From the NCBI GenBank assembly GCA_003164715.1, contig PLTZ01000001.1, positions 1-57,242 on the forward strand: a DNA stretch of 57,242 nucleotides, written 5' to 3'. Below the pieces are notes generated by a model. The model saw nothing but the letters and a program-made list of their open reading frames with translations, was not told the origin of the DNA and did not search any database. A program made the translations under genes and the position numbers. This document shows positions 35,338 through 49,138 of this stretch, piece by piece. Source of the stretch: Opitutaceae bacterium. GTDB lineage: Bacteria; Verrucomicrobiota; Verrucomicrobiia; Opitutales; Opitutaceae. The stretch's first letter is position 1, and every line of letters starts with the position of its first letter.

Positions 35338-37116
35338 TCACGCCTTGACGCCGCGAAAGCTCCGCCATGACCCGAGCGGCACCAAGGCAAGGCCGATCAC
35401 GGCCAGCTGGCTAGCGACAAAGGTGATCAGGCCGTAGAAGGCCGCGCTCGTGAATCCGTAGCTGTGCAGGCCGACGCCCAGCATGTTGGTGCCGAACCAG
35501 CTCCAGGCGGTGACCACGTTGCCGAAGACCGCGAGGGCCATCATGCCCCGCTGCCGAACGAGCCCGCCCCAGCGGCAATGCAGGATGACGGCGTTCCAGA
35601 TCACGATGAGGAGCGCGCCGTTCTCCTTGGGGTCCCATCCCCAGAAGCGCCCCCAGGACTGGTCGGCCCAGATGCCGCCCAGCATGGTCCCCACAAAGCT
35701 GAACAGGGTCGCGAAGCAGACGATGCCATAGACCATGCGCGCGAGGGCGTCCGCCGTGCGCGGGTCGAGCGAGCGCGTGAGGACCCCGCGCAGGATGTAG
35801 ATGATGGCCAGGAAGCCCGCAAGGAACGTCGAGGCGTAGCCGGTCGTGACCGTCACCACGTGGGTCGAGAGCCAGAAATTCGAGTCCAGCACGGCCCTCA
35901 TCATCTCGAGGGTGTCGCCGCTGAGGGAGAGGTGGTGCGCGATGACGAGCGTGCTGAAGCCGATCATGCTGCCGGCCGCGCTCGCGACGGCGTTTCGGTG
36001 GAGCTTCTCAAGCACCAGGCAGAGCGCGACCGACCCCCAGCCGATGAACAGGGCCGAGGAGTAAAGGTTGGTGACCGGAGGCCTGCCCTCGAGCCACATG
36101 CGCACCAGGATGCCGAGCGTCGCCACCAGGAACGCGAGCCCCATGACCCGGAACGCCGCGCGCCCCAGTTCGCCGGGCCACGAGAGCCACGATATCGCCG
36201 CCAGGAGGAACGCGATCACGTAAAGGAAGAGGCTGGTGATGAAGGGCTCGGCCTGGTTGAAGAAGGCCTCCGTGTTCGAGCGCCGCGCGGCCGCCGGGAA
36301 GTTGGCCGAGAGCTCCGCCCGGTAGGACCGGACCGCCGAATTGAAGGCGTCCGGCTGCGAATCCCGCCAGCTCTTGCCGAGTGCGGCGTAGACGAGCACG
36401 TGCGGGTCGACGCCCGAGGGGGACGCCGCGCCCAGCAGCGAATGCCCGACGCTCTGCCAGCCCGCGGGGTCGCCCGAGGCCCTGGCCGGCGGCACGGCGC
36501 GAAGCGAGCTGAACGTGTCCATGGTCTCGAAGGACGCGTGGAGCGCCGCCATCCGCGCGGCGTCGGACAATTCCGCGGCCAGGTCGGCGATCCCCGGGGC
36601 CTCAAGGCCGAACTTCAGCCGGACATAGAACTCGACGTGGCTGCGCAGCTCGACCACGGCCCGCTGGAAGGCGCTCCGCTCGGCGTTCTCGACCGGCTCG
36701 GCCAGGTGGGCCTGCCGGTCAAGCTCGTCAAGCCCCGCCTGCATCTGGCGGTACGAGAAGCGCACGCCGCCCTCGCCGTCGGCCCGGGTGAGGCTGAAGA
36801 TCGAGAGGACGTCCGGGTTGTCGATGCGGAAGACCTGGTAGGCGTCCGCCGTCTCCGGCAGGAAGAAGACGTCGAGCAGCCACTCCTCGGGCGTCACCTC
36901 CTTGCCGCTCGGCGTCATTACCCGCTGGCGCCCCTGCAGCATGAGGAGCCCGGTCCGCGCGATCGTGTCGAGGGGCTTTATCCTGCCCCCTGAAAGCACG
37001 GGAAGGCGGCCGAAGCCGGCGAGATCGAAGGGCCCGGCGTTCCCCCGTGGCAATAGGGTCGCGCCCACCCAAAGGAGGCCGAGCGCAAGCGCGATGAGGG
37101 GAACGTGCTTCTTCAC
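35338..37116 (-). CDS. ccsA: Cytochrome c biogenesis protein CcsA/ResC
   Basis: A 592-residue membrane protein that, with ResB, carries haem across the membrane and joins it to apocytochrome c. The haem-handling WWD-like motif is WGRFWGWDPKE in the C-terminal half, within about eight helices. The N-terminal 300 residues form a large extra-membrane domain (FGRLPVLSGGRIKPLDTIAR). The start GTG overlaps the resB stop as GTGA. The paired system II is consistent with the many c-type cytochromes encoded just to the right. Confidence 0.92.
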   Translation of the reverse strand: MKKHVPLIALALGLLWVGATLLPRGNAGPFDLAGFGRLPVLSGGRIKPLDTIARTGLLMLQGRQRVMTPSGKEVTPEEWLLDVFFLPETADAYQVFRIDNPDVLSIFSLTRADGEGGVRFSYRQMQAGLDELDRQAHLAEPVENAERSAFQRAVVELRSHVEFYVRLKFGLEAPGIADLAAELSDAARMAALHASFETMDTFSSLRAVPPARASGDPAGWQSVGHSLLGAASPSGVDPHVLVYAALGKSWRDSQPDAFNSAVRSYRAELSANFPAAARRSNTEAFFNQAEPFITSLFLYVIAFLLAAISWLSWPGELGRAAFRVMGLAFLVATLGILVRMWLEGRPPVTNLYSSALFIGWGSVALCLVLEKLHRNAVASAAGSMIGFSTLVIAHHLSLSGDTLEMMRAVLDSNFWLSTHVVTVTTGYASTFLAGFLAIIYILRGVLTRSLDPRTADALARMVYGIVCFATLFSFVGTMLGGIWADQSWGRFWGWDPKENGALLIVIWNAVILHCRWGGLVRQRGMMALAVFGNVVTAWSWFGTNMLGVGLHSYGFTSAAFYGLITFVASQLAVIGLALVPLGSWRSFRGVKA

Positions 37117-38378
37117 GGCGATGAAGGGGCGCGCTGCGCCGGCGAGGCGCCCGAGGCGGGGCCTGCGCGCCTGCGGAAGAACCCGAAGAGGTTGATCCCG
37201 AACTGGAGCACGAGGCCGAGGGTTATCAACGCGCACGAGAGGTAAGGAATCTGCCAGCTCGGGTTGCGCACGGCCTCCAGGACCGAGGTGTGGTCATTGT
37301 TGGCAAAGCCGGCCTGGTAGAAGGCAAAGCCCCCGTAGCGCAGCGGATTGTTCATCGAGATCAGCACCGAGCGGTCGTCGCGGCCGTCGTCGCTTCGCAG
37401 CCGGATCGTGCTCGCGAAATTCTTGGGGATGTCGGTTCCCGGATAGATGTCGTGCGTGAACTTGCCGAGCGTGAGCGTGAACGGCAGGTAGTCGCGCTGG
37501 GCTCGCAGCGCCAGCTGCCACGTGCGCCCCTGGTAGGTGAAGGTCTGGGGCTGGTCCAGCATCGCCGAGACGAGCCACGTGCCGAGCGGGCCGTCGGGCC
37601 CGGCCAGCTCCACGTATCCCGTCGGGAAGTTGCCCTCGTCCGGCTTGTAGGTGACCGGGGCCGGCTCGGCGATCACGTCGGTCCCGTCGCCCATGGTCGC
37701 CATCGAAGGGGGCGGGTTGGCGACCTGGGTGCGCGAACGCAGGACGGCATTCGGGAAGAAGGCGAGCGGCTTGATGGTGAACGGGAGCTTGGGGTGCTGG
37801 ATCACGTCTTGGCCGGCCAGGCGCGCAACGGGGATAGCCACGACATCGTCGTAGCCCGGATTGGTGATGTCCGCCACGGCGAGCTCGCTCTCCCTGAAGC
37901 TTTCGACGTAGCGCTTGGTCTGGCCCACGTCCAGGCGCACCTGGCCGTCGCGCTGCATGAGGCCGGAGAGCCCCTCCCCTATCAGCAGAAGGATGATGCC
38001 CACGTGGGTCAGCCAGATTCCGGACTTGCGCCACGTGAGGCGGAAACGGTCGGCATGCGCCGTCACGAGGTTCAGGAGCAGCGCGCCTCCCAGGAGGTAG
38101 CCGCCCGGGAAGACCGGCAACGAGAAGCCGGTGCCGGCGACCTTCGCCATCACGAAGAAGGAGTGGAAGTACTTCTGCTGCACGCCCCAGACCCCGAGGT
38201 GCACCTGGTCGAGCGTGGCGACGAAGATCATCACGAGCGACAGCACCAGGAGCGCCACCGTGAGCTGCAGGGACGCAAACCCCGACACGAGGGTGCGGAC
38301 AAGCGAGGCGCCTTCCGGCCGGGGCCGCGGCGCCGCGGGCTCCGGCTTAAGGGGCTGGCCTGGTTTCCCCTTGCTCAT
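37113..38378 (-). CDS. resB: Cytochrome c biogenesis protein ResB/Ccs1
   Basis: A 421-residue partner of CcsA. Membrane helices are near 32-52 (LQLTVALLVLSLVMIFVATL), 90-110 and 126-146, and again near the C-terminus (YLSCALITLGLVLQFGINLF). Between them lies a periplasmic domain with the usual ResB features, DRSVLISMNNPLRYGGFAFY. It starts at ATG 38378, overlapping the lipoprotein stop, and ends inside the ccsA start. The first 25 residues are Pro/Lys-rich and probably cytoplasmic. Confidence 0.92.
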   Translation of the reverse strand: MSKGKPGQPLKPEPAAPRPRPEGASLVRTLVSGFASLQLTVALLVLSLVMIFVATLDQVHLGVWGVQQKYFHSFFVMAKVAGTGFSLPVFPGGYLLGGALLLNLVTAHADRFRLTWRKSGIWLTHVGIILLLIGEGLSGLMQRDGQVRLDVGQTKRYVESFRESELAVADITNPGYDDVVAIPVARLAGQDVIQHPKLPFTIKPLAFFPNAVLRSRTQVANPPPSMATMGDGTDVIAEPAPVTYKPDEGNFPTGYVELAGPDGPLGTWLVSAMLDQPQTFTYQGRTWQLALRAQRDYLPFTLTLGKFTHDIYPGTDIPKNFASTIRLRSDDGRDDRSVLISMNNPLRYGGFAFYQAGFANNDHTSVLEAVRNPSWQIPYLSCALITLGLVLQFGINLFGFFRRRAGPASGASPAQRAPSSP

Positions 38379-39484
38379 TTGGGCTGTACCGTCTTCAGGA
38401 AGGCGGCAAAGGCGGGCCTCTCCTCCTCGACCAGCGCCGCGGGGCCCGTCAGCTTGAAAAACCAGGTGCCGCCCTGCCACGGGGTGAATGCCGCCAGGAT
38501 CCGCTGCTGGCCGGAACCCTCCGGCCCCGCGAAGTCGACCAGCGTGAAATGCAGCCCGTTAGCGTCGAGGGACTCGGTGACCGTGCCGATCGCGGAGTCG
38601 TCGACGGGCGCCAGGTCCACCTGCCCCCTCCAGCGGTTCACGTTCGCCGACAGGCCTCCGACGTCGCCCGGAAACGCCGTGATGGACATGTCCGCCTCCT
38701 GCCCGCCCCGCGCGATCGTGAAGCTGCCCTTGCGGATCGCGGTCGCGGGCTTCGGCTTCCACCCGTCCGGCGCCTGCCATTTGAGGGTCCTTGCGTCGCC
38801 CTGGTCGGTCGGCACCACGGCGAAGTTGGCGCGGGGAAGGTCATTGGTGTTCGCCGCTACCCTCGAGGCGCCCGGCTCGGCGGGCGCCGTCCCTGCGGCC
38901 GCGGCCCCCTGCGAGACGGACCTGATGAACTGGAAGAAGGCCTCCTTCTGGGACTCGACGACATCCTCGGGCCCCATCATCTTAAAGAACCAGACTTGGC
39001 CCGGCTCTTCGAGCCACGCGCCGAGGATCCGCGCCGCCGCCCTTCCGTCCGCGGGCTCCCCGCGGATGTCCGCGACCGAGAAATGGCCCGCGGGCGCCTC
39101 CAGGGCGCTCACCTCGGCCGGCAGCTGCTCGGCGGAGATGGGCGCCAGCTTAAGCTGCCCGCGCCAGCGGTTTATGTTCGCCAGGGTGTCGCCGCCGGCC
39201 CCGCCGAACGTGACGACCGAGACGTCGGCCCCGGCTCCGCCCGCCTTGCCCGGCGTCAGGTAGCTGGCGACGCGCAGCCCGCTCGCGGCCTGCGGCTGCC
39301 AGGGCGCAGGCGCGTCCCAGTGGAGGCCGGGCTGCGCCCCGGGAGCGGTCGCAACGGCCGAGGGCGCCGAAGCGGCCGCGCCCGCATCCTTGGGGACGCG
39401 GTAGCTCGTGATGTCCTTGCCGGAACAGCCCGCAAGCGCGAGCACGAGGCACGCGCCCGCGTTATTTCGAAAGCGATCGGACAT
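38375..39484 (-). CDS. Lipoprotein with two tandem copies of a ~135-residue domain
   Basis: A 369-residue lipoprotein (lipobox LALAGC, Cys20). Two homologous halves at about 55-190 and 235-367 share W-x-APxxW, an AD[VM]S[VI] strand, NRWRGQxxLAP (at 105-115 and 283-293), a WFFK[ML] strand and a [FA]xFIRSV/FLKTV end. I know no named function. It lies between cytochrome c and resB with overlaps on both sides, so a role in cytochrome maturation or in the same periplasmic electron chain is likely. Confidence 0.75.
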   Translation of the reverse strand: MSDRFRNNAGACLVLALAGCSGKDITSYRVPKDAGAAASAPSAVATAPGAQPGLHWDAPAPWQPQAASGLRVASYLTPGKAGGAGADVSVVTFGGAGGDTLANINRWRGQLKLAPISAEQLPAEVSALEAPAGHFSVADIRGEPADGRAAARILGAWLEEPGQVWFFKMMGPEDVVESQKEAFFQFIRSVSQGAAAAGTAPAEPGASRVAANTNDLPRANFAVVPTDQGDARTLKWQAPDGWKPKPATAIRKGSFTIARGGQEADMSITAFPGDVGGLSANVNRWRGQVDLAPVDDSAIGTVTESLDANGLHFTLVDFAGPEGSGQQRILAAFTPWQGGTWFFKLTGPAALVEEERPAFAAFLKTVQPK

Positions 39485-39800
39485 AGGCCACGAGGGCCTT
39501 CACCTCGCCGTCGGAGAGCTTGTCGGCGAACGCCTTCATCCGCTCCTTGCCCGACGAGTCCTTGAAGCCCTCCTTGATCTGCTTGGTGGCCTGCTCGTCG
39601 GTGAAGCTCTTCTGGTAATCCGCGCTCGTCATGTCCTTCACCTGGGCCATCCGGCCCGCCTTGGTGTGCCCGGTGCCATCCGGCCCGTGGCAGGATGCGC
39701 AGTTCTTGCTCCAGGTGTCGGGGATGTCGGCCGAACGGGCCACGCCGCTAAGGAGCATCGGGACGGCGGCCGCCAACAGGGGTAACGTTATTTTTTTCAT
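39462..39800 (-). CDS. Class I cytochrome c, single haem
   Basis: A 112-residue exported protein (signal MKKITLPLLAAAVPMLLSGV) with one haem site CASCH (34-38) and a C-terminal YVRSL helix typical of small class I cytochromes. First gene of the cytochrome c-lipoprotein-resB-ccsA operon; it overlaps the lipoprotein start by 23 bases. It could shuttle electrons to the multihaem proteins encoded nearby. Confidence 0.9.
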   Translation of the reverse strand: MKKITLPLLAAAVPMLLSGVARSADIPDTWSKNCASCHGPDGTGHTKAGRMAQVKDMTSADYQKSFTDEQATKQIKEGFKDSSGKERMKAFADKLSDGEVKALVAYVRSLSK

Positions 39801-40022
39801 GTGGTTCGGTGAGTTGGTCCGCCGGCATGTTGCCTGCAGACCGCGCGATGGTTGAGGCAACAAGGACGGCTGTCCAAGGGAAACTGTGTGCAATTATTGC
39901 GATTCGCTGCGCGGGGCTTGCGTCAGGCCCCCTTTCGCGGCGGCAAAGGATGCGCAGGGATGGCCAAGGGATGGCAAGACGGCGTCCGGAACCGTCCTCT
40001 ATACTGGCCCCGCGATTATTTG
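39801..40022. promoter_or_regulatory. Divergent promoter region between the two cytochrome operons
   Basis: 222 bases separate the minus-strand cytochrome maturation operon from the plus-strand quinol-dehydrogenase operon. TATACT at about 39999-40004, roughly 20 bases before the ATG at 40023, is a fair -10 for the rightward operon; I see no convincing -35. No sigma-54 box was found. Confidence 0.35.
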
Positions 40023-40793
40023 ATGAATGGGGACCCCAAGGCTCGAAACGTCCTGGCCCTGCTGACGGCCTTATTCCTGGCCCTCGCGGTCGGATTTGCG
40101 CTTGTCCCCGCGCAGCCCGGCGCGCCGGTACGGGTCCCGATTGTCCCCCGCAGCGCCCTGGCGATCGCGCCGATGACCGTGCGCATCTCGGCCGCCCAGC
40201 TTGTGAAGAGCGGCGGCGACGTGTCGGGCCTCGACTGCTATGCCTGCCATCACAAGGAGTCCCCGCCGGAGATCAAGTCGGACGCCGCACATCGGATCGT
40301 CCTGCCGAGGGAGCATACGGACCTGATCCTTGGCATGCGCAACTGCGCCGAGTGCCACCCGCCGAGCGATCCGGTCAAGCTGGACTACGACGATTCGGGC
40401 AACGTCATCGTCCCGAAGGCGCACAAGGGCCTCGTGTCGATGGCCCACGGCCGCAACTTCCGAAACGAGAACTGCTACAACTGCCACGACCGAGACCAGC
40501 TCGACCAGCTCCACACCCCGGATGGGGAGAAGCTCAAGTTCGAGCAGGCGACCCTTCTGTGCGCCTCGTGCCACGGCCCGACCTACCGCGACTGGCTGGC
40601 CGGGGCGCACGGCCGCACGGCCGGCTACTGGGACCGCAGTGCGGGCCCCATCGACCGGCAGGAATGCGCCTCGTGCCACGACCCCCACGCGCCCGCCTTC
40701 ACCGGCCTTATCCCCATGCCCGGGCCCCACCTGCTCCATCCCCTGCCGAAGGGCCAACCCGCCCCCTCCAAACCCGACGACCATGCCCTTTGA
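40023..40793 (+). CDS. Penta-haem cytochrome c (periplasmic subunit of NrfD-type complex)
   Basis: A 256-residue protein with one N-terminal membrane anchor or signal (about 9-29) and five CXXCH haem motifs (starting at Cys72, 108, 151, 180 and 215). No other folded domain is apparent. It is followed by an Fe-S protein overlapping by 11 bases and by an NrfD-type membrane subunit. This order matches known cytochrome/Fe-S/NrfD quinol-oxidoreductase complexes, in which the cytochrome passes electrons between the quinone site and soluble carriers. Start ATG at 40023. Confidence 0.92.
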   Translation: MNGDPKARNVLALLTALFLALAVGFALVPAQPGAPVRVPIVPRSALAIAPMTVRISAAQLVKSGGDVSGLDCYACHHKESPPEIKSDAAHRIVLPREHTDLILGMRNCAECHPPSDPVKLDYDDSGNVIVPKAHKGLVSMAHGRNFRNENCYNCHDRDQLDQLHTPDGEKLKFEQATLLCASCHGPTYRDWLAGAHGRTAGYWDRSAGPIDRQECASCHDPHAPAFTGLIPMPGPHLLHPLPKGQPAPSKPDDHAL

Positions 40794-41712
40794 CACCGAA
40801 GAGGACGGCATGTCTAGGAGGAGCTTCCTTCGCACCTCGACCGTGCTCTCGGCCGGCGTGGCCGCAGTGGCGGCCGGGCTCGCGCCGCTGCGCAAGCTCG
40901 GCGAGTTCACGTCCGTGGACCAATTCCTGCAGAAGTACTACAAGGAACTGACGCCGCAGGAGATGAAGACCGTCCTGGAGCGCATCGAGACCGAGGTGCA
41001 GCGCCAGTACGGCGTCCGGCCCCACGTGCGCGACTACAAGCCGATGAACGGCGTCGAGTACGTCTACGCCCTCAACCTGACCCGCTGCGTCGGCTGCCGC
41101 AAGTGTGTCCACGCCTGCGTCGCGGAGAACAACCAGTCCCGCAATCCCGAGATCCAGTACATCCGCGTCCTCAAGATGCCCAACGACGGCACGTTCGACA
41201 TGGACAAGGGGGACCACAACTACGCGCCGAAGTCGGTGCCCGAGCCCGGGTTCTTCTTCATGCCGGTCCAGTGCCACCAGTGCAAGAACCCGCCCTGCGT
41301 CAAGGTCTGCCCCGTGAAGGCGACCTGGCAGGAGCCCGACGGGATCACGGTGATCGACTACAACTGGTGCATCGGCTGCCGCTACTGCGAGGCCGCCTGC
41401 CCGTATTTCGCGAGGCGCTTCAACTTCGCGTCCCCCTCGATCCCCAGCGAGCAGCTCAACACCAACATGTCCTACCTCGGCAACCGCCCGAGGTACAAGG
41501 GCGTGGTGGAGAAGTGCCACTTCTGCATCCAGCGCAGCCGGGTCGGCCGCTATCCCGCGTGCGTCGAGGTCTGCCCGACGGGCTCGCGCAAGTTCGGCAA
41601 CATCCTCGATCCCAAGAGCGAGGTGTCCTACATCCTGAAGAACAAGCGGGTCCTTGTCCTCAAGGCCGAGCTCGGGACACTGCCCCGGTTCTTCTACTAC
41701 TTCGACATCTGA
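40783..41712 (+). CDS. Tat-exported four-[4Fe-4S] ferredoxin subunit
   Basis: A 309-residue Fe-S protein of the DmsB/PsrB/HybA type. The Tat motif SRRSFLRTSTVLSAGVAAVA is near residue 11. Cys groups CVGCRKCVHAC, CHQCKNPPCVKVCP, CIGCRYCEAACP and CHFC...CVEVCP give sixteen ligands for four clusters. The short tail includes KSEVSYILKNKRV. It should sit on the periplasmic face, between the NrfD subunit and the penta-haem cytochrome. No molybdopterin catalytic subunit is present. Confidence 0.92.
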   Translation: MPFDTEEDGMSRRSFLRTSTVLSAGVAAVAAGLAPLRKLGEFTSVDQFLQKYYKELTPQEMKTVLERIETEVQRQYGVRPHVRDYKPMNGVEYVYALNLTRCVGCRKCVHACVAENNQSRNPEIQYIRVLKMPNDGTFDMDKGDHNYAPKSVPEPGFFFMPVQCHQCKNPPCVKVCPVKATWQEPDGITVIDYNWCIGCRYCEAACPYFARRFNFASPSIPSEQLNTNMSYLGNRPRYKGVVEKCHFCIQRSRVGRYPACVEVCPTGSRKFGNILDPKSEVSYILKNKRVLVLKAELGTLPRFFYYFDI

Positions 41713-41720
41713 CCCGGGCC

Positions 41721-43403
41721 ATGAGCAACTACCTGCGATTCCTCCGGCGCTGCGCATCGGTCTCCCTGGTGGGCGACTGGCGGTACTACACCTGGATCGG
41801 GGCCCTGACGGCGCTCTGCATCATCGGGCTTAACGCCTACGCGAAGCAGGTGGTCGCCGGCCTCGAGATCACGGGCATGAGCGACCAGGTCTCGTGGGGC
41901 GTCTACATCGCCAACTTCACCTTCCTCGTGGGCATGGCGGCCGCGGCCGTCATGCTCGTCATCCCCGTCTACATCTACAAGAACGAGGACCTGCACGACT
42001 TGGTCATCTTCGGGGAGCTGCTCGCGGTGGCCGCCATCCTGATGTGCCTGGCCTTCGTGACCGTGGACCTCGGGCGCCCCGACCGCTTCTGGCACCTGAT
42101 TCCGGGCATAGGCGTCTTCCATTTCCCGGGCTCCATGCTCAGCTGGGACGTCCTCGTCCTGAACGGGTACCTCGTCCTCAACGTCTACATCTGCGGCTAC
42201 CTCCTCTACTGCCGCTACCAGAACCGCAAGCCCTCGAAGTGGCTCTACATCCCCTTCGTCTTCGCGGCCATCGTCTGGGCGATCTCGATCCACACGGTGA
42301 CGGCCTTCCTCTACGTCGGCCTCGGCGGGCGCCCGTTCTGGAACTCCTCGATCGTCGGCCCGCGCTTCCTCGCCTCTGCGTTCACCGCCGGGCCGGCCTT
42401 CGTCATCCTGGCGCTCCAGGTGGTCCGCCGCGCCAGCGGCTCCGCGAAGGCCGTGGAACTCCCTGTATCCGAGCGCGAGGCCGCAGAGCCGCACATGATC
42501 GCAAGCCGCACCGCCACCTTCGAGGACCTCGACCGGCTCGCCAAGCACCTTCCCGAGGTGGCCGCGGTCTCGATCGAGGACCGCCGCGCCTGCCTCGTCG
42601 GGGCGACCGTCCTCAACGCGTCGCCGGGCGACGTGCTGCTGCGCCAGGGGGCGCTCGACAACGACGCCTTCTTCGTCCTTACGGGCCGCGTGGTGGTCAG
42701 GCGCGACGAGGGCGGCCGCACCCGCATCACGCGCAATGTCGGCCCGGGCGAGCAGTTCGGCGAGGTCTCCGCGATCACGGGAACGCCCCGGGTGGCCACC
42801 GCGGTCGCGATGAAGCCGAGCGAGGTCCTGTGCATCACGGCCGACGCCCTGCGCAGGCTCATGAAGACCCCGAAGATGGACGAGATCATCAGCTGGAGGA
42901 TGGGCGAGCGGCTCATGATCTCGGACCGGAGCCTCCTCATCCTCAGGGCCATCGTCCAGGTGTCGATGATCATTAACGTGTTCCTCCTGGCCAACGAGCT
43001 CTTCACCGAGTTCTACAACTCCAACCGCCATGACATCTCCTGGCGGTACCTGCTGTTCGGCCTGGACGGGCACCATGCGCTCGTGCCCTGGTTCTGGACC
43101 GCGATCACGCTCAATGTCGGCGCGATGGTGCTGCTCATGCTTCCGCTCAGCCGGAGCCTGAAGTGGCTGAACGTGGCCTGCATCATGTGCATCTTCGGTA
43201 TCTGGATCGAGAAGGGCATGGGCCTCGTGATCCCGGGCTTCGTCCCAACCCCGCTCGGCGAGCTGGTCGAGTACCTCCCCACCCTCAACGAGACCCTGGT
43301 CTGCATCGGGATCTGGGCCTTCGGGCTATTGTGCTTCACCATCCTGCTTCGGATGGCGGTGCCGATCCTGCAAGGCCAGCTGACCCGCGCGACCGAGCCG
43401 TGA
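41721..43403 (+). CDS. NrfD/PsrC-type quinol oxidoreductase subunit with an inserted cyclic-nucleotide-binding domain
   Basis: A 560-residue membrane protein. Six helices lie at about 23-235 and four at about 404-550. The first half shows NrfD features such as VSWGVYIANFTFLVGMAAAA and FVTVDLGRPDRFWHL. Between the halves, at about 285-395, is a Crp-type cNMP-binding fold: SPGDVLLRQGALDNDAFFVL and the phosphate cassette GEQFGEVSAITGTPRVATAV (Glu348, Arg357). The insert lies on a loop and both halves are in one frame with even codon use. Quinol turnover would thus be gated by a nucleotide. It follows the Fe-S gene by eight bases. Confidence 0.88.
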   Translation: MSNYLRFLRRCASVSLVGDWRYYTWIGALTALCIIGLNAYAKQVVAGLEITGMSDQVSWGVYIANFTFLVGMAAAAVMLVIPVYIYKNEDLHDLVIFGELLAVAAILMCLAFVTVDLGRPDRFWHLIPGIGVFHFPGSMLSWDVLVLNGYLVLNVYICGYLLYCRYQNRKPSKWLYIPFVFAAIVWAISIHTVTAFLYVGLGGRPFWNSSIVGPRFLASAFTAGPAFVILALQVVRRASGSAKAVELPVSEREAAEPHMIASRTATFEDLDRLAKHLPEVAAVSIEDRRACLVGATVLNASPGDVLLRQGALDNDAFFVLTGRVVVRRDEGGRTRITRNVGPGEQFGEVSAITGTPRVATAVAMKPSEVLCITADALRRLMKTPKMDEIISWRMGERLMISDRSLLILRAIVQVSMIINVFLLANELFTEFYNSNRHDISWRYLLFGLDGHHALVPWFWTAITLNVGAMVLLMLPLSRSLKWLNVACIMCIFGIWIEKGMGLVIPGFVPTPLGELVEYLPTLNETLVCIGIWAFGLLCFTILLRMAVPILQGQLTRATEP

Positions 43404-43430
43404 ACGCAAGAACCTGAACCGCCCGCCGCC

Positions 43431-43922
43431 GTGCCGCACAAACTGACCCTGGAGGACGGCCGGCAGTCGCTCGCGGCCCACGTCGCGGCCAAAGGGGCGG
43501 AGATCCGGGCGAAGTACGGCCCGGCGATCGGCTGGGCGCAGCTCACCCGGATGCTGGCCGACCGCGAATGCGTCCGCTACCCCTGCGAGCTGGCCTTCGA
43601 CGCCGCCCCGCTCCAGCCGGACGAGTGTGCGTACCCGGAGCCTAAGGGCGAGCGCCCGGAGGACGGCTTCCGCCTCTGCGTCCACCCGTATTTCTCGGTG
43701 GACCCGGACCGGGTGCCCCTGCTGGCGCTCTACCAGATCGTCTCGATCAACTACGGCGCGTTCGCCTCCCCCAACGATGCGGAGGCCTTCGGGGCGGCCG
43801 TGCTCGGCATCCCCAAGGAGGAGTATTACCAGGCGCTGTGCGCCATGGCGGACGAGATTTCAACCGGCCACCTCGAAGCGGATTCGGGCGAGGCGGGCGG
43901 CTGCCATTGCGGCGACGCCTGA
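43431..43922 (+). CDS. Cys-rich hypothetical protein of the NrfD operon
   Basis: A 163-residue soluble protein with a GTG start 27 bases after the NrfD stop. Eight cysteines are scattered (ECVRYPCELAF, DECAYPEP, LCVHPYF, ALCAMADE) and the protein ends GGCHCGDA, which suggests metal or redox binding. I recognise no family. Its place in the operon suggests an assembly or accessory factor for the quinol complex. Confidence 0.75.
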   Translation: MPHKLTLEDGRQSLAAHVAAKGAEIRAKYGPAIGWAQLTRMLADRECVRYPCELAFDAAPLQPDECAYPEPKGERPEDGFRLCVHPYFSVDPDRVPLLALYQIVSINYGAFASPNDAEAFGAAVLGIPKEEYYQALCAMADEISTGHLEADSGEAGGCHCGDA

Positions 43923-43954
43923 CCGCTCACCGCAGGTCTCCCGCAACCGAAAAG

Positions 43955-43976
43955 GGCCCGGCCGAAGCCGGGCCCC
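43955..43976 (-). terminator. Strong UUCG-loop terminator, minus-strand cytochrome/porin operon
   Basis: On the minus strand GGGCCCGGC-TTCG-GCCGGGCCC is followed at once by TTTTC. A nine-pair perfect GC stem with a UUCG tetraloop is a classical intrinsic terminator. It lies between convergent genes, so it can also stop the plus-strand operon, though there the U-tract is weaker. Confidence 0.85.
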
Positions 43977-44005
43977 AAGGGTTTGACTCGCGCGGGCTCA
44001 GAGCC

Positions 44006-46216
44006 TCAGAGCGAATACGTGAGGGAGACGTAGGCGAGCGGTCCGTTGTAGTTGGTGAACCCGCCGGCCGTCGGATCCGTCCACCGGAGGTAGCCCACCC
44101 TGCCCTCGCCGATCAGCCGGTCGCTGAACTTGTGCTTCAGGCCGACCGTGACGTTGCTCTCCTCGAAGCTCGATCCGTAGGGCTGGCCGCCCTGGGCGAC
44201 CTGCGGGTTGTAGTTGTCCGCCCGCTGGAAGGCCCACTGGAGCTGGGCGTCCGTCTGCTTGTCGAGCACGAAGCCGCAGAGCGCGCTTCCGGTCACGTAG
44301 TTGTTGTCGGCATTGTTGACGGGCGAGGCGATGTTCGTCACCGCGGACACCACGACCACCGGCCACCCGGTCTGCAGGTAGCTGTAGACGAGGTTCACGT
44401 TGCCCTGCACGTAGAACTGGCTGACGGGCGTCCAGTTGACGGTCTCGCTCAGCATCTGCCCGCGGGCCTTGCCGGAGGTGATCTCGCTGCCGAGTCCGCC
44501 GTTCGGGATTGCCGCCGTGACGGACATGTCGCCGTACTGCGGCTGGTAGCGCGTGTTGAAGGACAGCTGCGCAAACGGCTTGAAGATGATGCTCAGCTTG
44601 ACCCCGGTGAAGGTGTAGCCGGTCACAAAGAGGCCGCCGTAGCTGCCCGTGCCGATGATGTCGTCCGAGCCCACGAACCGGTTCTGGTGATCCTTGCGGT
44701 AGACCTCGGCACGCACCGTGAACATGCTCGACGCGTTCCAGTTGGCGCCGACCTTCAGGTCCTCGTAGTCCTGGTTCGCGTCCTGGAAGAAGACGCTGCC
44801 GATCGGCGTCGCGGTGTTGGTCGTGACGCCTGCGCCCGTGACGGTTGTCGCTATATACGGATTGACCCAGTGCTGGGTGCCCCGGTCGATGCAGTCGTCA
44901 AACGTCCCGTAGAGCGAGAGGCTCCGGATGCCCGTGTACTCGAGCGAAAGCTCAGGCGTCTCGGTGTGGTCGAGGAAGTGGGAGTAGGTCAGCTCGTAGT
45001 TGGTGTTGATGTTGGTCAAGGCGACCGTCTTCGCCCCGGTGGCGAGCGTCGTGTTCATGAAGCCGCCGCTGCTGCCGACCCCGTTTGACTCGTCGCGGAA
45101 TCCGAGGTCCGCCGTCAGATCCTTGATCGGCGTGTACTTCAGGAAGATGTTCCCGGTGTAGTCGTAGAGCGTGGACGTGCCATAGATGGCCGCTGCCGTT
45201 TCGGCCACGTAGACCGCATTCGGCACCGCGGCATACGTGGGGGTGAGCCACGTGCCGCCGTTGGTCGAATTCTGGTGGGTGTACATGAGCCCAACGTCCA
45301 CGGCCAGCTTGTCGTTGATGGTCGTCTCGGTCTGGTCCAGGAGGCGCAGCGAATTGGAGATCCTGCTCTCGAGGTCGTCGGTCACCTCAACCGTCGGGTC
45401 GGCAAGCACGCCGAGGGAGTTCGGGTACTTGATGTAGTCCCGGGAGTCGACGTTGTTGACCCAGTCATAGGTGAACTTGAAGGTCTCTGTGGTGCGCCCG
45501 ATCTTCGCCGTCACCCCGGCTTCGACGCTGCGGTGGTGCTCGTCCAGGATCTGGGTGTTCGGGTTGATGTACACCGCGTTTGCGGGTAGCGCGTTGCCGA
45601 CAAGCGCATTCTTCACAACCGTGACCAGCGGGTTGACGACGGGCGCCCACTCCGTCGAGTCCTTGGACCCGGTCCGGACGTCGTCCTTGTAGCTGAAGGT
45701 GAAGACCGGCTGGTCGGGCTTGGCATAGGTCGCCCCGACCCAGAATGTGCCGCGGTCGACGTGGAGCTGCTCTCCGGTGAGCCGGTAGAGGCGGTCGGTC
45801 TCCGGGAAAAACCCGCCCACGCCGTCGTAGAACGTGCGGAAGCGCTTGTAGCCCATGTCGAAGCTCCCGACGTTCGTCTCGTCGATCTTCAGGGTCGCCA
45901 GGTAGTCGTCCGTCCCCTCGAGCGCGTGGCCGTTGACGGTGAGGGTCGTCGCGTCGGAGAGGTCCTTCGTGAAGTTGAAGTCCTCGATGCCGAAGGATCC
46001 CCAGGTGGGCGTGCTCTGGCGCGCCGCGTAGGAGGCGTCGTCGCCCGATATCCACGCCGTCTGACCGGTCACCTTGATGTAGCTCTCATAGGTGGGGAAG
46101 GCGTCGCCATTGGTCGGGGCGTCAGCCGCCACCGAGAGGGACACCGTGAGGGAAAGGGCTGCACCAAGGCCGACGAGGCCCGCGATGCGGCTGAGGGAGG
46201 TAGAGGCCGTATGCAT
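44006..46216 (-). CDS. MtrB/PioB-like outer-membrane beta-barrel of a porin-cytochrome conduit
   Basis: A 736-residue exported protein (signal about 1-31, cut near AAADAPT). Its remainder is alternating polar/aromatic strands from end to end, closing AYVSLTYSL, the pattern of a large barrel of roughly 26-28 strands. The N-terminal region keeps a gene-family start (ITVTGQTAW-like VTGQTAWISGDD) and TTLTVNGHALEGTDDYLATL. The multihaem cytochrome gene lies directly upstream with a 21-base gap, so the pair matches MtrA/MtrB, PioA/PioB and MtoA/MtoB units. No outer-surface cytochrome gene is seen. The N-terminal CXXC of Shewanella MtrB is absent. Confidence 0.85.
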   Translation of the reverse strand: MHTASTSLSRIAGLVGLGAALSLTVSLSVAADAPTNGDAFPTYESYIKVTGQTAWISGDDASYAARQSTPTWGSFGIEDFNFTKDLSDATTLTVNGHALEGTDDYLATLKIDETNVGSFDMGYKRFRTFYDGVGGFFPETDRLYRLTGEQLHVDRGTFWVGATYAKPDQPVFTFSYKDDVRTGSKDSTEWAPVVNPLVTVVKNALVGNALPANAVYINPNTQILDEHHRSVEAGVTAKIGRTTETFKFTYDWVNNVDSRDYIKYPNSLGVLADPTVEVTDDLESRISNSLRLLDQTETTINDKLAVDVGLMYTHQNSTNGGTWLTPTYAAVPNAVYVAETAAAIYGTSTLYDYTGNIFLKYTPIKDLTADLGFRDESNGVGSSGGFMNTTLATGAKTVALTNINTNYELTYSHFLDHTETPELSLEYTGIRSLSLYGTFDDCIDRGTQHWVNPYIATTVTGAGVTTNTATPIGSVFFQDANQDYEDLKVGANWNASSMFTVRAEVYRKDHQNRFVGSDDIIGTGSYGGLFVTGYTFTGVKLSIIFKPFAQLSFNTRYQPQYGDMSVTAAIPNGGLGSEITSGKARGQMLSETVNWTPVSQFYVQGNVNLVYSYLQTGWPVVVVSAVTNIASPVNNADNNYVTGSALCGFVLDKQTDAQLQWAFQRADNYNPQVAQGGQPYGSSFEESNVTVGLKHKFSDRLIGEGRVGYLRWTDPTAGGFTNYNGPLAYVSLTYSL

Positions 46217-46237
46217 GGTGTTGACGTCCGTTAAGGG

Positions 46238-47038
46238 TTAGGGACGAAGTGAGGCGTTCACATTGGAGCCGTGGACATCCTCGTGGCAGCCTGCGGACCA
46301 GCAGGTGCCCTCGGAGAGCCGGGACCCGATAGAACTGGCGTGGGCGCCGTCCTTGAACCCGCCGATGTTGAATCCGGGGGTGAGGGTCTCAAGGTGGCAG
46401 CGCATGCACAGGTTGGCGTCGCGTGCCACGAGCATCTTGTCGTTGACCGTGCCGTGCGGGTTGTGGCAGGCGGTGCAGCCCTCCTCACGGATGGCCCCGT
46501 GGGGATAGGTGTACGGGCCCGCCTGCTGCGTGTGGCAGCGGATGCACGTTTCGGTCTTGGCTGTAAGCTGGGCGCCGCCGCCGCGGATCGCATTGCCCTT
46601 GTGGACGTCGTGGCAGTCCACGCAGCTCACCTTGCCGGCGAGGACCGGGTGCGTGTGCGGGAGGCTGAACTCGCCGCGCTTGTCGAGGTGGCACTGGAAG
46701 CAGGCCTCGGGTGACTTGCGGGGGTTGACGATCGTGCCGGCCTTGCCGCCGGACTGGACGTGCAGGCTTCCCGGGCCGTGGCAGGCCTCGCAGCCGGTGT
46801 CGCCCACCTTCGCATCGGCTATCATGAGCCGGGCGTGGGAGGCACTCGCAAAGTGGCTCGTCTGGTCCTCGTGGCATTGGACGCATTCCTTGCTGCCCAC
46901 GTAGGTGGCCCCCGGTGTGCCGGTGCCCGGTGCGACCACAATGCGGTCGACCGCCACGCAGGAGATCAGGAGCAGGGACCAGAGTGCGCATCCACCGAAT
47001 ATCAGGTGGGTCGCGAATCGGCGTGAGAATCTTTTCAT
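46238..47038 (-). CDS. Octahaem periplasmic lipoprotein cytochrome (MtrA/DmsE/OmaB-like)
   Basis: A 266-residue protein. The signal ends in LLLISC, giving a lipid-linked Cys27. Seven CXXCH motifs start at Cys52, 83, 113, 139, 165, 188 and 211, and an eighth atypical site is CWSAGCH (246-252), a CX4CH spacing. Eight haems match OmaB/OmaC size rather than the ten of MtrA. It should insert in the barrel encoded next and carry electrons across the outer membrane. A promoter lies about 50 bases upstream. The leader before ATG reads CAACACC, as for the barrel gene. Confidence 0.9.
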   Translation of the reverse strand: MKRFSRRFATHLIFGGCALWSLLLISCVAVDRIVVAPGTGTPGATYVGSKECVQCHEDQTSHFASASHARLMIADAKVGDTGCEACHGPGSLHVQSGGKAGTIVNPRKSPEACFQCHLDKRGEFSLPHTHPVLAGKVSCVDCHDVHKGNAIRGGGAQLTAKTETCIRCHTQQAGPYTYPHGAIREEGCTACHNPHGTVNDKMLVARDANLCMRCHLETLTPGFNIGGFKDGAHASSIGSRLSEGTCWSAGCHEDVHGSNVNASLRP

Positions 47039-47416
47039 GGTGTTGGCGTTGGGGCTTGGGGAAATCGGTCTAATCAGCTGGAACGGATCGTGCCATATAT
47101 ATCGGCAGGCATCTGCGCATCAATTGCCAACATTCGCGCATACTTTGGTCATTGTTTGTGCTTATTCAGTGGTGAAGCGCCGTAAATGCCGCGATGCCCC
47201 TAGAGCGGCCGGACCCCAGAATACCAAGCTCCAGCGAAACCGCCGCGATCCGCGCCCTTCGCCGGCGGGCTCCGACTCCCCTTCCGTTGGCCTGACGGAA
47301 ACTCGAGGCCGTGCGCACCCGGAGCAGAGCAAGAATAGCGGAGCAAATGGCAAGAGATGCGCCGACAATCGGCGCAGGCCCCACTATCTTCCATCAGCTA
47401 AAGAAAAGGTCCTACC
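47039..47416. other. Intergenic region upstream of the octahaem operon
   Basis: 378 bases with no supported gene. It contains the leftward promoter described separately and a short repeat TGCC-N9-GGCA (47091-47107) over its -10. The right part, 47200-47400, is GC-richer and looks non-coding. Confidence 0.5.
47096..47123 (-). promoter_or_regulatory. Sigma-70-type promoter of the octahaem cytochrome/porin operon
   Basis: On the minus strand TTGATG (47123-47118) and TATATA (47101-47096) are separated by 16 bases, placing the transcript start about 50 bases before the ATG. The -10 overlaps the small palindrome TGCC-N9-GGCA, a possible operator. Confidence 0.5.
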
Positions 47417-47695
47417 ATGCCGGTCATCAAAATCCATCTGGAGCACGAGGAGCTTTCAGCCATCAAGCGCCGGGCGAGCGAGCTTGGCATCAGCGTCGAG
47501 GACCTGGCCTACGGGGCGATCAACTGTTCGATGAGCCACGTGAAGGAGTCCTTCTGCAGGACGCGGATTGACCAGGCCGTCAGCGAGCGCGGGCGCGACC
47601 TGCCCCTGTGGAGCGATAGCGCCAGGTCCGTCGCCATCTACGAGAGCAAGCCCGACATCCAGCAGGCCCCCGGCCCAAAGGGCGGCCCGCTCTGA
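47417..47695 (+). CDS. Small ribbon-helix-helix-like hypothetical protein
   Basis: A 92-residue protein starting MPVIKIHLEHEELSAIKRRASELGISVEDLAYGAIN, which reads as strand-helix-helix like CopG/Arc proteins. It is preceded by AAAAGG seven bases before the ATG, one of the few plausible Shine-Dalgarno sites here. No partner toxin gene follows. The role is unknown. Confidence 0.7.
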   Translation: MPVIKIHLEHEELSAIKRRASELGISVEDLAYGAINCSMSHVKESFCRTRIDQAVSERGRDLPLWSDSARSVAIYESKPDIQQAPGPKGGPL

Positions 47696-47794
47696 GCCCC
47701 CCCGCGCCGCGAGCCTCTCGCGATTAGCCCGCACCCGGCCGGCCCCCTCGGCTGTTAGCTGACTTTCCCTGCGCAGCCGTAAGCCCCTTCCGCC

Positions 47795-49138
47795 ATGAGC
47801 ACCCGTTCGTACGCGCTTGCCCGCATTCTTGCGCTCCTCGCTGGCGCCCTGCTTCCTGCAGGCCTTGCGGCCGCGCAGCCCGCCGCCGCCGCCGCTACGC
47901 CGGCCGCCCCGCCGCCTTGGGCCCCATCCGACGGCCCCAACCATCCGATGGGGGTCGGTCGGGGGATATTCCCCGGGCGCGTGACCTGGATCCGGGACAC
48001 CTCCGCCACGCCGTGGGACGGCAAGACGGGCAACTGGTGGGACGAGGGCACGGGGATCCGGCAGCCGGCCGTCGACAACATGCTGTCGCGCTCGCTCCGG
48101 GCGCTCTCGGGCAAGGCCGAGGACCGGGCGGCGTGGGAGGCCCTCTTCCAGTATTTCAACCAGCAGCAGCGCCAGCTGAAGGCCGGGTACCGCAGCGGCG
48201 AGAAGGTGGCGGTCAAGATCAACTGCAACAATGCGTACGGCGGCTACGGGGACGTTGACGGGCAGATCGACCAGTCTCCCCAGGTGCTGCTCGGCCTGGT
48301 GGGCCAGCTCGTGAACGCCGCCGGCGTCCCCCAGGAGATGATCACGGTCTACGAGGCGGCCCGCGTCGTCCCCGACCGCGTCTACCTGCCGACGCACACG
48401 GCGTTCCCGCGCGTCCGGTTCGTCGATTCCCAGGGCAACGGCGCCAACGGCCGCTACCCCGTGGAGTACGTGGAGGAGATGCTCAACTATTCCATGCCCG
48501 ACCCGAAGGTCGGCAGGGACCTGCCGCGGTGCGTCGTGGAGGCGACGTACCTTGTCAACCTCACGCTGGTCAAGGGCCACCCGACGACGGGAGTGTCGCT
48601 CACCGCCAAGAACCATTACGGCACCGTCGACGTCCGCGACCATGAGGTCTACGTGAACGCCCATTCGCACCCGATGGGGACGTACCACCCCTTCGTCGAC
48701 ATGATCGGCTCCAGGGAGCTGGGAGGAAAGACGCTGCTCTTCATCCTGGACGGCCTTTACGGCGTCCGCGACGTCAACGACAATGTCGCCGACTACGGCC
48801 ACTGGAACAAGCTCTTCCACGGGGAGTGGCTCTCGAGCGTCTTCATGTCGCTCGACCCCATCGCCATCGACTCGGTCGGCCTCGACTTCCTGCGGGCGGA
48901 GTTCCCCTACGGCAGGTCCACGGACCTGAACTTCCAGCCAATGAGGAACGCGGACAACTATCTTCACGAGGCCGCGCTCGCCGACCATCCGCCCTCCGGC
49001 GTCCGCTATGCTCCCGACGGCGTCCCGCTCAAGAGCCTCGGAGTCCACGAGCATTGGAACAACGAGGTCGACCGAGAGTACTCCAGGAACCTAGGGCGCG
49101 ACGAAGGAATCGAACTGCGGGTCGTTCCGCCGAACTGA
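47795..49138 (+). CDS. Exported DUF362-domain protein
   Basis: A 447-residue protein with a signal peptide (ARILALLAGALLPAGLAAA) and a Pro/Ala-rich stretch. The DUF362 core follows: VKINCNNAYGGYGDVDGQID, TYLVNLTLVKGHPTTGVSLT, KNHYGTVDVRDHEVYVNAHS and DPIAIDSVGLDFLRAE. In this family the KIN and KNH blocks are conserved and some members carry Fe-S ferredoxin motifs; this one has none. Function is not established. Confidence 0.85.
   Translation: MSTRSYALARILALLAGALLPAGLAAAQPAAAAATPAAPPPWAPSDGPNHPMGVGRGIFPGRVTWIRDTSATPWDGKTGNWWDEGTGIRQPAVDNMLSRSLRALSGKAEDRAAWEALFQYFNQQQRQLKAGYRSGEKVAVKINCNNAYGGYGDVDGQIDQSPQVLLGLVGQLVNAAGVPQEMITVYEAARVVPDRVYLPTHTAFPRVRFVDSQGNGANGRYPVEYVEEMLNYSMPDPKVGRDLPRCVVEATYLVNLTLVKGHPTTGVSLTAKNHYGTVDVRDHEVYVNAHSHPMGTYHPFVDMIGSRELGGKTLLFILDGLYGVRDVNDNVADYGHWNKLFHGEWLSSVFMSLDPIAIDSVGLDFLRAEFPYGRSTDLNFQPMRNADNYLHEAALADHPPSGVRYAPDGVPLKSLGVHEHWNNEVDREYSRNLGRDEGIELRVVPPN

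Follow-up and report, generated by a model that had tools for sequence, protein, structure and literature searches.

A cyclic-nucleotide-binding domain between the membrane helices of a DsrP-like subunit in Opitutaceae: a possible cAMP-gated quinol oxidoreductase

The protein encoded at 41721-43403 (+) in the DNA of an Opitutaceae bacterium is, by profile matches, homologues and alignment, a DsrP/NrfD-type quinone-reactive membrane subunit of 560 residues that carries an inserted cyclic-nucleotide-binding domain (CNBD). The window, by which we mean the whole stretch of DNA that was analysed, comprises 57,242 nucleotides of contig PLTZ01000001.1 (assembly GCA_003164715.1; the genome is G000 below). 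This architecture is real, conserved among relatives and apparently unreported, and it arranges known parts in what seems to be a new way. Our proposal is that the protein may be a cAMP-gated quinol oxidoreductase, with the CNBD as a cassette that is swapped in and out of an extracellular-electron-transfer operon; taken as a whole, we give this proposal slightly less than an even chance.

A single unbroken frame of 560 codons encodes six helices, the CNBD and four further helices. TM1-6 (residues 1-239; 41721-42437, +) include Y62, T67, Y84, E99, D116, S138, D143 and Y150. They are followed by an insert of about 157 residues (240-396; 42438-42908, +), which consists of a variable linker (240-264) and the CNBD (265-397; 42513-42911, +), the latter identified by PF00027, the model and structure matches. 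The phosphate-binding cassette FGEVSAITGTPRVATA (346-361; 42756-42803, +) contains E348 and R357, and TM7-10 (402-550; 42924-43370, +) are placed by alignment, model and hydropathy. Pfam NrfD (PF03916) matches residues 51-243 (E 9.8e-37; 127.7 bits against a cut-off of 25.8), Pfam cNMP_binding (PF00027) matches residues 300-383 (E 1.5e-20), and the match of the NCBIfam DsrP model NF045798, split into two stretches, reaches 399.9 bits (cut-off 350). Hydropathy gives ten helices, seen as peaks or peak groups, arranged six plus four around the CNBD, in line with the 8-10 expected of an NrfD/PsrC-type subunit. Pfam, NCBIfam and hydropathy thus agree with the initial annotation that an NrfD-type protein, a CNBD and membrane helices share one frame. 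Its description as an "NrfD quinol subunit" holds up in part: the family, the quinone-site residues and the operon partners discussed below argue for a quinone-reactive protein, whereas the name is better replaced by DsrP-like.

Structural models indicate that the insert adopts the CNB fold, as had been claimed. A fragment model of residues 255-432 (pLDDT 71.9) aligned with CNB domains of known structure, reaching Z 14.6, with matches to the CNB domains of PKG, PKA, MlotiK1 and SthK at Z 13.5-14.6, and residues 263-397 of the full-length model aligned with the CNBD of the M. loti channel at Z 17.0 and an rmsd of 2.1. Matches of the fragment model to the DNR sensor domain and to FNR (Z 14.3 and 13.0) were approximately equal to that with PKA; as neither protein is known to be a cNMP sensor, the ligand cannot be read from the fold alone. 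The full-length model (AlphaFold2, 12 sequences) has a pLDDT of 59.7 and is weak in the membrane part, where nine helices are formed and TM2 is open. This weak model aligned with the ActC chain of alternative complex III at Z 18.3-20.0 over 355-359 residues on both sides of the insert, the best alignment (Z 20.0, 359 residues, rmsd 5.0) spanning model residues 6-544. The best 50 matches of the first structure search were nearly all CNB domains or channels, the exception being the ActC chain; in the second search, all but the top four among the matches listed were CNB domains or channels.

The domain order is conserved in sister genomes. Homologues were found in 83 of 250 Opitutaceae genomes, 33 with the insert and 49 without; the remaining one, G214, is unclear, comprises the C-terminal part only and was assigned to neither group. 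The 33 genomes with the insert represent 15 genera and comprise 29 continuous matches and four that are split or cut by contig ends, and six genera hold both forms. In 28 further genomes the same architecture is present in one frame, one copy being cut N-terminally by a contig end. That assembly or gene calling had fused two genes, a possibility noted in the initial annotation, was rejected because 28 other genomes, for 15 genera overall, have the frame equally unbroken and the junction is fixed; we consider its probability negligible. A phylum-wide sample of 387 genomes contained 17 with a homologue: five with the insert, all from Opitutaceae, and 12 without, six outside and six inside this family. 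The Opitutaceae assemblies include L004 and L005 with the insert, L006 with the insert but cut by a contig end, and L007 without it. Comparisons below are based on an alignment of 71 of 80 fetched entries (29 with and 42 without the insert), nine contig-end pieces having been excluded; matches in 13 Opitutaceae genomes (12 without the insert and G214) and in the non-Opitutaceae G324, G381 and G558 lie outside it. A plasmid collection held four DsrP/NrfD relatives, none spanning 80% of the query. One DsrP relative (L143, 45% identical), on plasmid p1 of Flammeovirga kamogawensis, lies beside genes for a molybdopterin oxidoreductase, NapD, cytochrome c3 and a 4Fe-4S protein. Judging from this plasmid, DsrO-DsrP-like modules may serve other enzymes as well.

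The residues expected of a quinone site are retained irrespective of the insert. D116, S138 and D143 are present in all 71 aligned rows and Y62 in all 70 rows that reach that position; T67, E99 and Y150 are kept in every row reaching them, in both forms alike, and Y84 is present in 69 of 71 rows, with H in two of the 42 no-insert rows. The quinone and proton positions were matched by offset, that is by spacing, to the DsrP1 quinone and proton-path residues listed in PMC8076601. For QrcD, PMC13059093 reports that mutating D70, Y110, S138 or Y150 fully compromised function, and we infer that these residues correspond to residues in the present protein. According to the relevant sections of both sources, the proton and quinone mechanism of the NrfD family is still debated (PMC8076601, PMC13059093). 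Together, the family, the conserved quinone-site residues and the operon partners make it well supported that the protein is a quinone-reactive subunit. Median identity of TM1-6 between the two forms (0.858, calculated with 30 of the 42 no-insert rows after exclusion of the 12 most distant) equals that within them (0.870 and 0.854); therefore, the catalytic part is not visibly changed with the CNBD.

Charge bias puts the N-terminus and the TM6-TM7 loop, in which the insert is located, in the cytoplasm: insert forms have on average 15.5 K+R over six predicted inside loops and termini versus 6.0 over five outside ones. The loop between TM2 and TM3, expected to be inside, is nearly devoid of K or R. 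The cytoplasmic side is also where cyclic nucleotides are made.

A strong case can be made from the aligned copies that the nucleotide pocket is intact. F346, G347, E348, S350, R357, A359 and A361 are invariant in the 29 aligned insert copies. In cNMP-binding domains, the E and R of the cassette contact the ribose and the phosphate, and the initial annotation had placed both correctly, at Glu348 and Arg357. The residue after the cassette arginine varies among the 29 copies (M in ten, V in seven, A, T and Q in three each, E in two and L in one), such that 22 of 29 have M, V, Q or E at the position occupied by A in PKA and by T in PKG; two further CNB domains encoded in these genomes likewise have V there. 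The cassette as a whole is of the canonical E/R type, unlike those of FNR, FixK and NtcA, families in which the fold serves to sense something else and whose cassettes differ from this type according to Table 1 of PMC2246266.

The pattern of substitutions is that of a domain under purifying selection, weaker than on the helices, preceded by a nearly unconstrained linker. In the three closest insert pairs, dN/dS of the CNBD (265-397) is 0.16, 0.18 and 0.09 and that of the linker (240-264) is 0.52-0.94; in the next 11 pairs listed, dN/dS of the CNBD is 0.46-0.70. Over all pairs, among which the distant ones are near saturation, median pN/pS is 0.51 for the CNBD, 0.36 for the cassette, 0.90 for the linker, and 0.19 and 0.26 for the two membrane parts. 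Median identity is 0.58 for the CNBD, 0.71 for the cassette, and 0.87 and 0.81 for the membrane parts.

The domain was most likely inserted once. The 29 insert CNBDs form a single clade (support 98/96) relative to 23 other CNB domains drawn from seven insert genomes and one relative, and it is from this single clade that the single origin follows. The insert is missing as one block from 42 of the 71 aligned homologues and present in 29, and the 42 sequences without it share one common junction, to within a residue. The two forms are interleaved in the trees: the membrane-half tree requires seven switches between forms, at least three of them forced by well-supported branches, and the tree of the neighbouring DsrO requires 12, at least seven of them so forced (65 of 71 rows, 27 with and 38 without the insert; DsrO matches were kept at 52% identity or more over 150 residues). 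The common junction of the 42 sequences favours recombinational exchange over repeated independent deletion, which we consider the less likely origin of the no-insert forms. The insert thus behaves as an exchangeable cassette, and it is the trees that carry this general claim.

In one pair of genomes, the replacement of an allele is well supported. G243 (L056, with the insert) and G102 (L085, without it) belong to the same genus and have closely similar operons. Their DNA is 91-98% identical over DsrO and the start of dsrP, 82-87% over the rest of dsrP from approximately base 300, the insert excepted, and 88-93% just downstream of dsrP; third-position differences number 24 of 214 in DsrO versus 107 of 312 in later dsrP (p 8e-10). 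The control pair G243/G097, in which both have the insert and the count includes it, differs in the same direction but less strongly (p 0.005), the contrast in the mixed pair G238/G144 is no larger than in this control (p 0.006), and the pair G153/G169, both without the insert, has no contrast in divergence along the gene. We therefore reject along-gene divergence as a general proof of recombination, as it is strong in G243/G102 alone. Fission of the protein would leave a separate CNBD protein in no-insert operons, and none was found in the fetched neighbourhoods with a model built from the insert, all 35 matches of which were insert-bearing dsrP genes or pieces of them and which could miss a distant CNBD.

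The surrounding genes suggest that the subunit belongs to a multihaem electron pathway. The typical gene order is monohaem cytochrome, multihaem cytochrome, DsrO, DsrP and a 163-aa protein. In the window, these correspond to a small monohaem cytochrome c (39462-39893, -), relatives of which recur near the operon; a multihaem c-type cytochrome with five CXXCH motifs (39852-40793, +), whose true start may be internal; a DsrO-like periplasmic iron-sulfur subunit (40768-41712, +; likely start 40783 or 40810); dsrP; and the gene for the 163-aa protein (43431-43922, +), which is found in operons of both forms and has no Pfam or NCBIfam match. The DsrO-like subunit matches Fer4 Pfam families, scores 174 bits with NCBIfam DsrO, below the cut-off of 200, and has at its N-terminus what we take to be a twin-arginine-type motif. 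Across fetched stretches of 4-19 kb, some of them cut by contig ends, relatives of the multihaem cytochrome and DsrO are present in 28 of 29 stretches with the insert and in 28 of 30 from close no-insert forms; the 163-aa protein, which has relatives in 28 and in all 30 of these, respectively, is possibly a further subunit or an accessory factor.

Next to the operon lie genes for a 736-aa putative outer-membrane porin of a porin-cytochrome pair (44006-46216, -), which has no Pfam match and recurs beside a multihaem cytochrome, and for a multihaem cytochrome of the DmsE/GSU2203 type (46238-47038, -) with seven CXXCH motifs and one longer-spaced motif, both family scores being below the cut-offs. 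The pair is present in 14 of 29 insert stretches, a count in which the window's short locus was used (15 including the window itself), in 18 of 30 close no-insert stretches and in none of the 12 distant ones; it is missing from nine of 29 insert and 11 of 30 close no-insert stretches. At homologous loci, excluding the copy in G000, porin relatives of at least 200 residues are approximately 24-58% identical and the paired multihaem cytochrome 53-80%. By description, the putative pair resembles that in the verrucomicrobial clusters of PMC5615132, in which a porin gene lies beside a multihaem cytochrome gene with approximately eight haem sites. A conduit of this kind would consist of a porin with at least 20 strands and a periplasmic cytochrome with eight haem sites. 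Those clusters were proposed to function in extracellular electron transfer in a humic-rich bog lake, with the inner-membrane step left as "ET in IM" (PMC5615132), and the main text of that paper mentions neither "NrfD" nor "cyclic". We infer that the present complex is a candidate for the inner-membrane step of such porin-cytochrome pathways.

Judging from its genes, the operon appears to serve a multihaem and possibly extracellular electron pathway, and not nitrite or polysulfide reduction. A role as the DsrP of sulfate reduction was also considered and rejected for the present gene in its own genome. In G000, dsrA has no match, and DsrM and DsrK were not recognised among the ORFs annotated at 35338-49138. 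Among the 33 insert genomes, no dsrA match reaches the cut-off of 392.85; strong tandem matches below it occur in G027 and G258 and weak ones in five genomes. The tandem dsrA-like matches (G027:C14:49585-51752 and G258:C243:7524-9640) score 329 and 319 bits, each followed by a weaker match. The dsrAB-like pair of G027 shares its contig with a second DsrP, which is more distant (45% identical), lies no more than 10 kb away and lacks the insert; this again separates sulfate reduction from the present gene.

A possible source of cyclic nucleotides is present in nearly all of these genomes. Searches for cyclases, which covered class III, found them in 32 of 33 insert genomes (G011 being the exception), in 29 of 33 no-insert genomes tested, a part of the 49, and in three of three members of the genus in which the gene itself had no match at 1e-20. 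Whether a genome has class III cyclases shows no association with the insert worth claiming. G000 has three class III matches, the best of which is a CHASE2 cyclase, presumably of the adenylate type, with metal, lysine and asparagine-arginine motifs that look intact to us. G000 also contains, at L002 and L003 (G000:C24:29613-30299), an open frame of 1046 codons with two tandem CNB domains, and G005 contains a similar one.

The reading that we favour, and believe to be somewhat more probable than its contrary, is that the protein is a subunit of a quinol:multihaem-cytochrome oxidoreductase over which a cytoplasmic cyclic nucleotide, probably cAMP, exerts control in cis. It would be the quinone-reactive membrane subunit of a DsrJOP-like complex made up of a multihaem cytochrome, the four-cluster ferredoxin subunit DsrO and DsrP. 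Quinol would be oxidised at the outer face of the inner membrane, and electrons would pass to DsrO, to the multihaem cytochrome and then probably to the neighbouring porin-cytochrome conduit. The CNBD would sit in the cytoplasmic TM6-TM7 loop with its last helix a few residues from TM7; binding of a cyclic nucleotide, most likely cAMP, would move this helix and hence TM7, and the shift of TM7 would open or close quinol oxidation or the proton path, with a sign that cannot be told. The last helix of CNB domains swings over the bound nucleotide. In the fragment model this helix (384-397) is separated by four residues from TM7 (402-431), and the short distance is firm, being evident from the primary structure itself. 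Given this swing and the short link, a direct pull on TM7 is the simplest mechanism. The coupling is suggested rather than established by the models because their confidence is low at 383-401, exactly between the CNBD and TM7.

Nucleotide binding and gating of electron flow are plausible, and other readings have to be weighed against them, particularly as close relatives of the insert proteins do without a CNBD. The CNBD might control the complex in response to a ligand other than cAMP or cGMP, such as a cyclic dinucleotide, a nucleoside or another small molecule. The unusually variable position after the cassette arginine, the single GGDEF protein encoded by G000 and the presence of the insert in G011, which has no class III cyclase match, are in line with this idea, as is the recruitment of CNB domains elsewhere for different ligands (PMC2246266, in the portions concerned; trypanosome PKA). 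Against it stand the invariant E and R of the cassette and the class III cyclases of the other 32 insert genomes, and we regard it as unlikely, if worth keeping in sight. Alternatively, the CNBD might be a scaffold for assembly, dimerisation or a cytoplasmic partner with no ligand acting on it, which would fit the interleaving of the two forms without evident changes in the operon as well as the lower conservation of the CNBD compared to the helices. A scaffold has no need of a full phosphate cassette, yet the cassette is better conserved than the CNBD as a whole and its key residues are invariant; this makes the scaffold, in our view, decidedly unlikely.

The signal could also run in reverse, with the quinone or redox state changing the affinity for the nucleotide and the protein buffering or reporting cAMP. 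The short link between the CNBD and TM7 would permit this too, but the protein has no output domain and no nucleotide-handling gene was recognised among the window neighbours examined, and we consider it highly improbable. Cyclic-nucleotide control of respiratory branches is known at the level of transcription. If gating is true, a second messenger could act within seconds and without new protein, through a sensor inside the quinone subunit itself; provided that the nucleotide binds and gates, the architecture points to direct switching of an electron pathway by such a messenger. The pairs of insert and no-insert forms constitute a natural domain-insertion experiment in the NrfD family, and matched pairs in the same genera and operons make the gating idea directly testable.

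Our searches of the open-access literature found no published NrfD/DsrP-CNBD protein, and an unremarked entry in domain-architecture databases is likely. Where that literature names NrfD together with a cyclic nucleotide-binding domain, the passages concerned refer to separate genes. The portion of a 2007 survey of 30 CNB-domain families available to us includes a fusion with a pyridine-nucleotide oxidoreductase and none with NrfD (PMC2246266). Among the best 60 of 111 matches to solved structures, the best-aligned stretches are confined to either the CNBD or the NrfD part, and none of the molecules is named as if it combined the two.

The closest known systems share different parts of this architecture. 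Similarly to DsrP of DsrMKJOP, QrcD and ActC, the protein is a ten-helix quinone-reactive subunit with an iron-sulfur partner, a multihaem cytochrome and matching quinone-site residues; it differs from DsrP of DsrMKJOP by the insert with the CNBD, by the lack of a dsrA match in G000 and by the lack of a recognised DsrM or DsrK among the annotated neighbours. It resembles Bact_Pyrredox, in which tandem CNB domains are joined to a pyridine nucleotide-disulphide oxidoreductase, and the mycobacterial Pat acetyltransferase in having a CNBD and an enzyme in one chain, the first of these being likewise a redox enzyme. Both have soluble or unrelated catalytic domains and, unlike the present protein, involve no quinone chemistry. 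Finally, the covalent joining of a cytoplasmic CNBD to membrane helices is shared with HCN and CNG channels, MlotiK1, SthK and bacterial CNBD mechanosensitive channels, and MlotiK1, SthK and PKG are among the structures that the insert matches well. In these channels the CNBD is attached C-terminally to the membrane part; in the present protein, by contrast, it separates helices 6 and 7 of a respiratory subunit, and its last helix runs on into TM7.
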